DNA from: Vibrio artabrorum
Lineage (GTDB): Bacteria > Pseudomonadota > Gammaproteobacteria > Enterobacterales > Vibrionaceae
Direction of reading: 5' to 3'
Length of the DNA: 64,000 bases
NCBI RefSeq assembly: GCF_024347295.1
Contig: NZ_AP025459.1
Location: forward strand, 1,274,471 to 1,338,470
Part shown: in pieces, positions 5,490 through 44,637 of the stretch
How the letters are laid out: every line of letters begins with the position of its first letter
Numbering within the stretch: position 1 is the stretch's first letter
Notes under the pieces: generated by a model
The model's input: the letters and a program-made list of their open reading frames with translations, nothing else
The model's database searches: none
What the model was told of the DNA's origin: nothing
Made by a program: the position numbers and the translations under genes

Positions 5490-5581
5490 TAACGCCGCAT
5501 TAAGGTGTGAGCGGCGCTTGGCTATACTTGAGCGAAGCGAAACTGCCAAGCGTTGCGAATCACTCTTAAATGCTTTGTTAG
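5490..5581. repeat. attC at the left end of the IS3-bearing cassette
   Basis: A short attC (about 92 bp) from TAACGCCGCATTAAGGTG to GCTTTGTTAG, with the arm pair CGGCGCTTGGC/GCCAAGCG. Unlike other cassettes, its following bases (GTTAGTTGCC) are not complementary to the cassette's right end (ACACTTAAC). Confidence 0.85.
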
Positions 5582-22913: not shown

Positions 22914-23003
22914 TATTTCCTCCAAGCACCTAACGAATGACATGGATTCCCCCTACCGAGGATATGCCACACTTATGTGGTACTTAATTGCACCGGAGGC
23001 ACT

Positions 23004-24029
23004 ATGTCTGATTATTCTTATTTCTGCGGTATCGACCTAGCTAAAAACCACTTCAGTCTTCATGCCGTAGACCAAAATGGTAAGGTCATACTTCATAAGT
23101 CGGTAACTCGCTCTAAACTACTGACTACAATAGCAAATATGCCACTCATGCGTATAGGCGTTGAAGCGTGTGGTGGTGCACATTATTGGGCAAGAACACT
23201 CAATAAACTTGGGCACGACGCCCGCATTATGGCCGTTAAATACGTAATTCCTTATCGAACTAAAGGAAAGAACGACCTTAATGATGCTGTTGCCATATGC
23301 GAAGCTGTTCAGCGTCCATCAACTCGCTTTGTACCCGTAAAATCCCCCGAGCAACAAGCCATCTTATCGGTACATAGAATGAGAGAGCATTGGGTTCGTG
23401 AACGCACCGCCCTTATGAATCGCATGCGCGCCCTACTCTCTGAGTTCGGGTTAATCATTCCTGTTGGCCGCTCTTCATTAATGAAACACGTTCCCTTAAT
23501 CCTTGAAGATGCAGAAAATGAACTGCCACATCTCGCAAGAACGGTGATTGCCGATGCTTATCACCACCTTGGAGAGTTGAATCAACGTATCGCCGATACT
23601 GAACAAGTCTTCGAGTCTTTTGCTAAGGTCAGCGCTAATGTTCAACGAGTGATGAAGGTTCGTGGCATTGGACCGCAAACCGCTACTGCGATACTTGCTT
23701 CGATAGGCAATGGTTCTCAATTTGATAAAAGCCGTGATTTCTCTGCTTGGCTAGGACTCGTACCAAAGCAATATTCGACGGGAGGAAAGCCTCGCTTAGG
23801 TCGGATAACCAAACACGGCGACAAATACTTGCGAACACTATTAGTTCACGGGGCAAGGACAGTCATTGCTAACCTTGGCGACAAGCAAGATAAGCTAAGT
23901 CAGTGGTGTCGAGGCGTTCTAGAACGAAGAGGAATGAACCGAGCGATAGTGGCACTTGCCGCGAAGAACGCACGAATTATATGGTCGCTTTTACACAATC
24001 AAACCGAATATGAAAACTATGCTGCTTAA
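23004..24029 (+). CDS. IS110/IS1111-family transposase (DEDD recombinase)
   Basis: 341 residues. The N-terminal RuvC-like DEDD domain shows FCGIDLAKNHFSLHAVD (D), IGVEACGGAHYWARTL (E) and KGKNDLNDAVAICEA (D..D). The C-terminal Transposase_20 domain shows VRGIGPQTATAILASIG, FSAWLGLVPKQYSTGGK and HGDKYLRTLLVHGAR, with the usual conserved serine near STGG. ATG 23004 has GGAGGCACT upstream. Intact. A perfect 14-bp hairpin (24018-24049) covers its stop codon. Confidence 0.93.
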   Translation: MSDYSYFCGIDLAKNHFSLHAVDQNGKVILHKSVTRSKLLTTIANMPLMRIGVEACGGAHYWARTLNKLGHDARIMAVKYVIPYRTKGKNDLNDAVAICEAVQRPSTRFVPVKSPEQQAILSVHRMREHWVRERTALMNRMRALLSEFGLIIPVGRSSLMKHVPLILEDAENELPHLARTVIADAYHHLGELNQRIADTEQVFESFAKVSANVQRVMKVRGIGPQTATAILASIGNGSQFDKSRDFSAWLGLVPKQYSTGGKPRLGRITKHGDKYLRTLLVHGARTVIANLGDKQDKLSQWCRGVLERRGMNRAIVALAAKNARIIWSLLHNQTEYENYAA

Positions 24030-24280
24030 GTAGAAACTTAAGCAGCATAAAGAGTTAAAACCACCGGGTCATTGCAGACGCTAATGATGGAGATAGGTTA
24101 AGACCACTTGCGGAGAGCCTGTTAATGCGGCGGACACACTAGATGTCATCTAACGAATAAGGCACCGCAGTCGCGCAAGTCATCAGGGCCACGACGTATG
24201 CGAATCGTCGATAAGTAGGCCGAATGTAGAGCGGCAGTCCAAAACCCATCAACATAAGTTTAGCGGATGTTTGACAACCG
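24030..24280 (+). ncRNA. Putative bridge/seekRNA of the IS1111-type element
   Basis: This noncoding right end is where IS1111-group elements encode their guide RNA. GTTAATGCGGCG (24121-24132) is the complement of CGCCGCATTAA, the first arm of several attC sites (for example 5490, 17302, 20061). TCTAACG (24149-24155) repeats the left-flank CTAACG. Together they cover both sides of the insertion point on opposite strands, as target guides should. Exact RNA ends and folding are not determined. Confidence 0.55.
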
Positions 24281-24412
24281 GGGGAATCCATGTAGCCGTG
24301 TTAAGTGGTGAGCAACGCCCACCGAACTCAAGACAACATACCATAATCACCACACTAAAACTTGAAGCCAGAACTCGCAAGCGTTGGGAATCCGTCTTTA
24401 ACACTTTGTTAG

Positions 24413-27537: not shown

Positions 27538-27739
27538 AAGCTCTCCCTCCTTAGTCTGACTAGTTAAAAACCCCACAATTTCCGCTAAGAGAAACTGCAC
27601 CATAAAAACAGGTGGATTTGACGCAAAGTAAATCGAGGCTGCCATCATCAGTCTCAGGAGACCACCACTGAGAGACGCATTCACGTTTCGGCTTTCGACT
27701 TAGTTTTAGCATTATAACGTATTGAACTGAAAAGAAATA

Positions 27740-43659: not shown

Positions 43660-44637
43660 ATGAAAAATTCACCTTTTTTATCTTATATACAAGAGTATAT
43701 GCTTGGTAGGCACTATGCTCTTCGTACAACAAAATCTTATATATATTGGATTCATCAATATATTTTGTATCATGATAAAAAGCACCCCAAAAGCTTAACA
43801 TCGAGACATGTTGAAGACTTCTTGACACACTTGGTTGTTAATAAAAAGTCAGCAAAGAAAACACAAAGCCTTGCGCTCAATGCGTTGGTTTTTCTATACA
43901 AAGAGATCATCCAAGAACCGGTCGATCTCGACATGCAATTTCGGCGTTCAGACAAGTCTCGAAAATTGCCAACAGTGATGACTCAAGAAGAAATAAGCCG
44001 ACTCTTTAGCCACTGTTCGATCAACTACAAGCTGCCGTATCAATTAATGTATGGATCAGGTCTGCGTTTAATGGAGTGTGTACGCTTGCGAATACAAGAT
44101 ATCGACTTTGAATATAAATCTGTACGTGTATGGCAAGGAAAGGGGGGCAAAAACCGCTTGGTAACCATCGCTCCGGAGCTTTTTTCCAGCATTAAACAGC
44201 AGCAACAGAGGTCCGTAAACTATTACCAGCAAGATATACATGATGACGCATTTTCAGGTGTGCACATGCCCGACGCACTCGCAAAAAAATATCCAAACGC
44301 AGAAAAAAGCTCAAATTGGCAATTTCTCTTTCCATCCCCTCGTTTGTCTATCGATGTAAAAACAGGTGAATTACGTAGACATCATATTCATCCGACGGCG
44401 CTACAAAAGCACATTAAGATAGCGGCTCAAAAAGCGAATATTGAAAAAAATATCTCATGCCACACTTTAAGGCATTCATTTGCGACACATCTTCTTCAAA
44501 GCGGCGCTGATATTAGAACGGTTCAAGAACAACTTGGACACTCTGATTTAAAAACGACACAAATTTATACTCACATCATTGATCGAGGGGCTAATGGCGT
44601 TGTTAGCCCCCTATCAAGAATATTTCAAAGTAAATGA
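43660..44637 (+). CDS. intI: Integron integrase IntIA
   Basis: A 325-residue tyrosine recombinase that inserts and excises cassettes at attI and single-stranded attC hairpins. The core-binding N-domain includes MLGRHYALRTTKSYIYWIHQYI. The catalytic residues are all present: R136 (YGSGLRLMECVRLR), K160 region (WQGKGGKNR), H268 and R271 (CHTLRHSFATHLL), H294 (QLGHSDLKTT) and Y303 (QIYTHI). The integron-specific extra helix (about 190-220, DDAFSGVHMPDALAKKYPN) separates it from XerC/D. It appears intact, with no frameshift, and is divergent from the array. The ribosome binding site AAGG is 5 bp upstream. Confidence 0.97.
   Translation: MKNSPFLSYIQEYMLGRHYALRTTKSYIYWIHQYILYHDKKHPKSLTSRHVEDFLTHLVVNKKSAKKTQSLALNALVFLYKEIIQEPVDLDMQFRRSDKSRKLPTVMTQEEISRLFSHCSINYKLPYQLMYGSGLRLMECVRLRIQDIDFEYKSVRVWQGKGGKNRLVTIAPELFSSIKQQQQRSVNYYQQDIHDDAFSGVHMPDALAKKYPNAEKSSNWQFLFPSPRLSIDVKTGELRRHHIHPTALQKHIKIAAQKANIEKNISCHTLRHSFATHLLQSGADIRTVQEQLGHSDLKTTQIYTHIIDRGANGVVSPLSRIFQSK

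Follow-up and report, generated by a model that had tools for sequence, protein, structure and literature searches.

How does an insertion sequence come to lie at one particular position inside an integron attC site? The question is raised by a stretch of 64,000 nucleotides of the Vibrio artabrorum genome (here called the window), where an insertion sequence interrupts an attC of the Vibrio chromosomal integron. We put a probability of about 93% on the following answer, drawn from sequence and from analogy to characterized relatives: this is an IS1111-type element for which we predict a seekRNA (bridge RNA) from the noncoding right end. Such an RNA would direct the transposase to one fixed attC position, and the segments expected to do so change together with the site and with the element's ends. 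Two stretches of this tail change with the insertion site across relatives, so the tail is likely to be transcribed into a guide RNA. The insertion position, the repeats, the transposase family, a conserved fold, and the covariation of four segments with both flanks and both ends were read from the sequence itself (Table 1).

Table 1. Features of the window element and its surroundings, with right guides and flanks of related elements
Feature	Position	Strand	Basis or remark
IS1111-type insertion sequence, 1,360 bp	22936..24295	+	ends set from the flanks of many copies and the intact attC sites
Left flank CTAACG, the attC core on the left side of the junction	22930..22935	+	sequence; TAACG precedes 55/58 same-guide copies
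Left subterminal inverted repeat ACATGGATTCCCCC	22940..22953	+	
DEDD transposase gene, 341 aa	23004..24029	+	PF01548 and PF02371; NCBIfam NF033542
Predicted seekRNA/bridge RNA core (target loop and donor loop)	24109..24235	+	conserved fold
Stem GCCT, paired with AGGC (24160-24163), closing the target loop	24117..24120	+	fold
Right target guide GTTAATGCGGCG (effective part probably TTAATGCGGCG, 24122-24132)	24121..24132	+	predicted pairing with top strand of CGCCGCRTTAA; covariation z 14.0, 0/2000
Apical hairpin GACA...TGTC between the target guides	24133..24147	+	two-sided changes in 4/4 pairs
Left target guide TCTAACG	24149..24155	+	matches left flank (would pair with bottom strand); covariation z 9.0, 0/2000 over all 110
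First donor-end segment GTCAT	24179..24183	+	complementary to left-end ATGAC (22937-22941); covariation z 8.5, 0/2000
Second donor-end segment ATGTAGA	24224..24230	+	covariation z 9.4, 0/2000 over all 110
Right subterminal inverted repeat GGGGGAATCCATGT	24280..24293	+	
Remainder of the interrupted attC, second arm CTTTAACACTTTGTTAG at its end	24296..24412	+	complementary second arm found
Integron integrase gene of the array	43660..44637	+	TIGR02249, 457.6 bits
Right guide GTTAATGCGG			flank CCGCRTTAAG (window group)
Right guide TTTAATTGGG			flank CCCAATTAAG
Right guide GTCTATAAAG			flank CTTTATAGAC
Right guide TTGTGCTCAG			flank CTGAGCACAG
Right guide TTTAGCAAGA			flank CCTTGCTAAG
Right guide ATTAGCTTGG			flank CCAAGCTAAG
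Right guide TGATTTGATC			flank GATCAAATCA
Right guide AGTTAATACC			flank GGTATTAGCT
Right guide GAATTTGCGT			flank ACGCAAATGA
Right guide ATAACGCAAC			flank GTTGCGTAAT
Natural attC arms			CCGCATTAAG, CCCAATTAAG, CTTTATAGAC, CTGAGCACAG

By its sequence, the window element belongs to the IS1111 family; repeats, transposase, and downstream noncoding region all fit. The transposase scored 345.8 bits (cut-off, 140) against NCBIfam NF033542, "IS110 family RNA-guided transposase." GLVPKQYSTG in its translation corresponds to the IS1111 motif GL-P----S(t)G, and its length lies within the 330 to 350 aa of the family. The solved IS621 and ISCro4 transposases matched it only at residues 217 to 289 (E values of 8e-06 and 9.2e-06). 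The two subterminal repeats agree at 14 of 14 positions, and the 4 and 2 bp outside them are the short outer extensions of the IS1111 family. The region 3' of the transposase gene (24030-24295, 266 nt) is a long noncoding one, as is usual for this family.

The host site reads TAACG followed by CC, with a G that can be assigned to either side of the junction, and the right flank starts CCGTGTTAAG (24296-24305). An earlier note on this DNA had placed the insertion after TAACG of an interrupted attC, and the flanks of many copies confirm both the site and the ends. The match that it gave between the element's tail and the first arm of the attC sites at 5490, 17302, and 20061 was also confirmed: the arm TAACGCCGCATTAAG is exact at all three. 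Allowing up to three mismatches, this arm occurs at 31 sites in the window (1.72 expected). With no more than one mismatch it occurs at 16 sites in the whole genome (10 exact), and all are inside C2:1253290-1315397, the integron stretch.

The array also contains a match to the type II hammerhead ribozyme (window 27633-27693, minus strand; 43.3 bits, gathering threshold 37), in a stretch of about 380 nt that separates two attC sites and has no open reading frame of at least 100 aa. This stretch looks like a mobile ribozyme cassette because it is 95 to 96% identical in four other Vibrio genomes (L212 to L215), where the adjoining attC-type arms are partly different. Type II hammerhead matches occurred in 13 of 227 genomes of the genus. 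A literature search, judged by titles and the beginnings of abstracts, found no paper on a hammerhead ribozyme in an integron cassette.

We collected relatives of the element. Its own genome holds three intact copies, one of them (L001) at a non-attC site, together with a truncated copy (L004) and a distant fragment (L005). In a scan of genome contigs we found 73 loci, and 75 of the 227 genomes of the genus had a match at an E value of 1e-80 or better. The whole collection of 177 loci was reduced to 128 elements with both repeats by excluding 48 in which the transposase match was short or the repeat pair was missing, and L005, which had no match at the cut-off. Removal of repeats of the same insertion left 110 unique insertions, covering 40 to 100% transposase identity. 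Ten plasmid elements had been included; L168, L170, L171, and L173 were dropped, and L169 was kept despite doubtful ends. The names ISKpn4, ISPst6, and ISPa25 were absent among the 120 matches listed of at least 5,000 plasmid records.

Most insertions (87 of 110) have the same end frame, with a site that reads TAACG or a near variant, then mostly CC. Uninterrupted attC sites in the window read TAACGCC, so that insertion leaves neither a gap nor a duplication relative to them. By a second complementary arm or an attC body motif, 70 of the 87 sites were recognizable as attC; insertion at one fixed attC position is a feature shared with the attC-targeting IS1111 group. The arm test by itself recognized 52 of 87, compared with 6.3 in shuffled flanks, a control that covers the arm test. 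We had also tried local alignment of whole arms, which recognized just 25 of 87 and was replaced because the spacer and additional bases vary among attC arms. Among the 17 sites that neither the arm test nor the body motif recognized, L109 and L110 are closely similar over about 90 bp on the right and differ beyond it on both sides, like cassette junctions; L001, L009, L080, L158, and L162 resemble non-attC sites. In L080 the sequence on the right resembles an internal part of the transposase gene of another copy, so its two ends may not be those of one simple insertion. L001 (C1:699645-700667) is an off-target copy between AACAACG and CCGTATAAAT, adjoining sequence like the target of another IS1111 lineage (L134, L135, and L140; GTTGTT...GATCAAATC). 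L050, from a Thiobacillus metagenome-assembled genome and 60% identical, is inserted between TTAACG and TAGAGGTAAGG, possibly an attC of another type, with a guide fit of 7.5/10.

The two target guides lie where the earlier note had put them. Covariation between flanks and guides, whose absence that note had named as a refuting observation, was present across related elements. When flanks were permuted among the 110 insertions in 2000 trials, a procedure that removes relatedness only in part, the right guide paired with its own right flank at 7.93 of 10 positions versus 6.84 (z = 14.0, reached in 0 of 2000 trials), and the left guide also exceeded every permutation (Table 1). Both results held in 23 cluster representatives (z = 9.1 for the right guide and 6.5 for the left, each 0 of 2000). 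Among 84 elements that share the left side TAACGAATGA, which includes TAACG, the right guide still followed its flank (z = 10.0, 0 of 2000), and the left guide had no significant excess (226 of 2000). We also searched without regard to position. The best 10-mer of the scanned noncoding region lay 140 to 179 nt before the right end, which is the place of 24121-24132, in 71 of 98 distinct guide/flank combinations and elsewhere in the other 27.

Ten right-guide types are listed with their flanks in Table 1, and further elements fit less well. The weak fits among the representatives were L146 and L157 (5.5/10), L028 and L177 (6.0), and L169 (6.5; doubtful ends). IS4321 (L174, named from its annotation) matched at 7 of 10 positions of the right guide and 8 of 8 of the right-end segment. 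Insertions outside attC match the guide too: the L001 site CGCCGTATAAAT and the L009 site CGCCCTATTAAT each give 9 Watson-Crick and 2 wobble pairs of 12. The left-guide match in the window runs over the junction into the element (AAT), with 24150-24158 and 22930-22938 identical (CTAACGAAT). The candidate segments match both target strands, and the top-strand match comes first, as in the attC-targeting IS1111 group. The layout that the earlier note had invoked, a noncoding region downstream of the transposase gene with the top-strand match 5' of the bottom-strand match, agrees with the description in PMC11187229.

We found 59 unique insertions by elements with 67% or more transposase identity to the window element, and 58 of these carry the exact window guide. 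This natural series indicates which guide positions matter. The left-flank CG and the CC after it were paired in 56 to 58 of the 58, and the TTAA was Watson-Crick paired in 54 to 57. Position 5 of the guide was mismatched in 22 of 58 insertions, and position 7 was most commonly a wobble (36 of 58). The 5' G of the 12-mer lies opposite a nonpairing base in 51 of 58, so the effective guide is probably the 11-mer TTAATGCGGCG; the match of the 12-nt segment that the earlier note had described stands, but its first base probably does not belong to the guide. The same note had counted two mismatches to the arm actually hit. The positions were right, but both are wobbles (rG-dT and rU-dG), the second at the position where wobble prevails, and the window insertion has 9 Watson-Crick pairs, 2 wobbles, and 1 mismatch of 12. 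Judged by the pairing pattern across the 58, it is ordinary for its guide.

A donor pair, which the earlier note did not contain, co-changes with the element's own ends. It consists of the segments at 24179-24183 and 24224-24230. The second, ATGTAGA, equals the right end ATGTAG (24290-24295) followed by the left end's first base, the order in which the two ends would be joined in a circle. In the 23 representatives, the left-end and right-end segments gave z values of 5.9 and 6.9, each with 0 of 2000 permutations. Among the 84 TAACGAATGA elements, the left-end segment was above all permutations (z = 5.7), and the right-end segment had no significant excess (140 of 2000). That segment and the left target guide hardly vary there, which accounts for the missing excess of both.

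A predicted fold, backed by compensatory changes, places most of the two target segments in an internal loop. In the single-sequence centroid, they flank one internal loop between the GCCT/AGGC stem and the GACA/TGTC hairpin. A 2-bp contact between the guides (24129-24130 with 24150-24151) is present in addition in both the minimum-free-energy structure and the consensus, and a pair of 24123 with 24157 in the consensus alone. Closure of both guides in stems, which the earlier note had named as another refuting observation, is thus not predicted, apart from these two or three pairs between the guides themselves. One helix between the two donor segments is predicted in the free RNA. The single sequence was not unusually stable (z = 0.70; 150 of 200 shuffles equalled or exceeded its stability), and at the gathering threshold Rfam had no family over the predicted RNA. 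RNAalifold on 22 aligned relatives predicted 30 pairs, 10 of them with two-sided changes. We counted 19 of the 30, leaving out the outer six-pair helix, three target-loop pairs, and two pairs near the right end. In the same 22 selected sequences from which the structure was derived, 98.1% of cells of the 19 pairs were paired, compared with 30 to 47% in slid versions, and 8 of the 19 had two-sided changes. Two-sided changes numbered 51 (16.0 in shuffles), and the covariation score was 0.360 (0.165 in shuffles). A contrary measure was the number of further standard pair types, 15 compared with 18.2 in shuffles (500 of 500 at least as high).

Elements of group B, whose transposases are 50 to 56% identical to the window transposase, carry several right guides. 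Nine selected group-B elements include pairs with different guides, each fitting its own flank at 8 to 10 of 10 positions, 76 to 94% identical transposases, and noncoding regions 81 to 94% identical outside the guide; the same comparison also holds pairs with equal, near-equal, or offset guides. In a Vibrionaceae clade, the left segment is kept on the attC core TAACG, and the right one is swapped to suit attC arm types.

These results bear on other ways to explain the insertions. Protein contacts alone might let the transposase read attC or the attC hairpin, the tail segments being relics or structural. Sites of this kind are palindromic and structured, and the same-frame copies lie mostly in them. 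However, the right segment follows the flank even among transposases as alike as those of group B, distant relatives obey the same rule at other targets, and the non-attC insertions L001 and L009 match the guide. We therefore regard recognition by protein alone as very improbable. Somewhat less improbable, but still unlikely, is that the RNA guides insertion into the folded single-stranded attC hairpin and not into double-stranded DNA. Recombination at attC uses a folded strand, and most targets are attC arms. Against a hairpin target, relatives use other targets, and the sites of L001 and L009 were not recognized as attC. On either side of the junction the segments also match both strands, as for the linear target of ISEc11 by the published description (PMC11187229).

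Finally, both matches could be chance resemblances in a short tail beside attC-rich DNA. The segments are just 7 to 12 nt long, and the window has many attC motifs (31 sites), but for each of the four segments 0 of 2000 permutations paired as well as the actual arrangement, whether all 110 insertions or the representatives were used. We give chance almost no weight. The reading that we prefer remains an RNA-guided element, for which ISKpn4, ISPst6, and ISEc11 (PMC11187229) and IS621 (PMC11208160) suggest the course of events. RNA would be made from the noncoding tail and bound by the transposase, and the element would leave as a circle. The target loop (24121-24132 and 24149-24155) would pair with both target strands around the junction of TAACG and CCGCRTTAA, and the donor loop would pair with the joined element ends. 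The transposase would then exchange strands without target duplication. In the Vibrionaceae, the left guide would stay on the TAACG core while the right guide is rewritten for different attC arm types.

A second, distant IS1111 lineage (L058 and L180 to L202), also predicted to be RNA-guided, likewise interrupts attC. At an E value of 1e-170 it has 23 copies in 15 of the 227 genomes, and a single genome carries nine of these copies. It inserts between TTAAGGTG and TGAGCA, 12 to 13 bp further into attC than the first register. Among 21 copies with both ends, the left flank is exactly TTAAGGTG in 19 (the exceptions are L190 and L193), and the right flank starts with GTGA of the attC body in all 21. 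The predicted RNA has a TGCTCAC segment (TACTCAC in one element) and a ATAAGGTG segment, which in L058 are at the two guide places. In L191, a second-lineage element adjoins the right end of a first-lineage element in the same attC remnant; two elements share one attC site. In a tree of 34 selected transposases with a midpoint root, several long branches, and just two second-lineage members, those two fell in another clade, beside elements with other targets (96/88 for the five-row clade), and groups A and B fell with Thiobacillus L050 (88/82, drawn open).

We think it fairly probable that at least two separate RNA-guided lineages hunt Vibrio integron attC sites in different registers, the first with a repeatedly rewritten right guide and a left guide locked on the attC core and the second with a guide pair of its own. 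With two registers, and a right guide rewritten along with arm types, guide evolution would then track the host's repertoire of cassette sites. If this is true, these elements are RNA-guided parasites of a gene-capture system. A literature search, with most subscription papers outside its reach, turned up no work on how guides vary in Vibrio or on a second attC register.

Targeting of attC by IS1111 elements is already known. The earlier note's reading of a natural RNA-guided element adapted to attC is supported by covariation, but its novelty was overstated, since ISKpn4 and ISPst6 are attC-targeting IS1111 elements with mapped seekRNAs, and ISPa25 is predicted to be alike (PMC11187229). The experimental RNA data are those of ISKpn4 and ISPst6, whereas the window element is of a Vibrionaceae lineage with a predicted RNA, likened to them by published description. 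PMC11616780 and PMC11089894 cite Tetu and Holmes 2008 and Post and Hall 2009 for attC targeting, and through these citing papers the window element shares insertion in cassette attC with that IS1111-attC group (ISPa21, ISPa25, and others). PMC11187229 also describes a natural redirection: ISEc11 and ISXne4 have 72% identical transposases, the target-matching part of the RNA is exchanged, and the target is changed, as appears to be the case here. Unlike that pair, within one clade here the right guide comes in several types, the left guide is constant, and the targets are mostly attC arms. The IS621 bridge RNA likewise has a target loop and a donor loop with two guide segments each, but IS621 is of the IS110 type, with its RNA at the left end and without long subterminal repeats, by the description in PMC11208160.

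What this analysis adds is natural covariation for four guide segments and a second attC register. Dozens of wild insertions reveal which guide letters matter and where a G-U wobble is tolerated, so IS1111 guide rules can be tested without designed sequences. Within a single clade, target guides have been exchanged and the remainder of the element has stayed alike. The case also suggests that RNA-guided elements repeatedly interrupt attC sites of large chromosomal integrons, in two registers.
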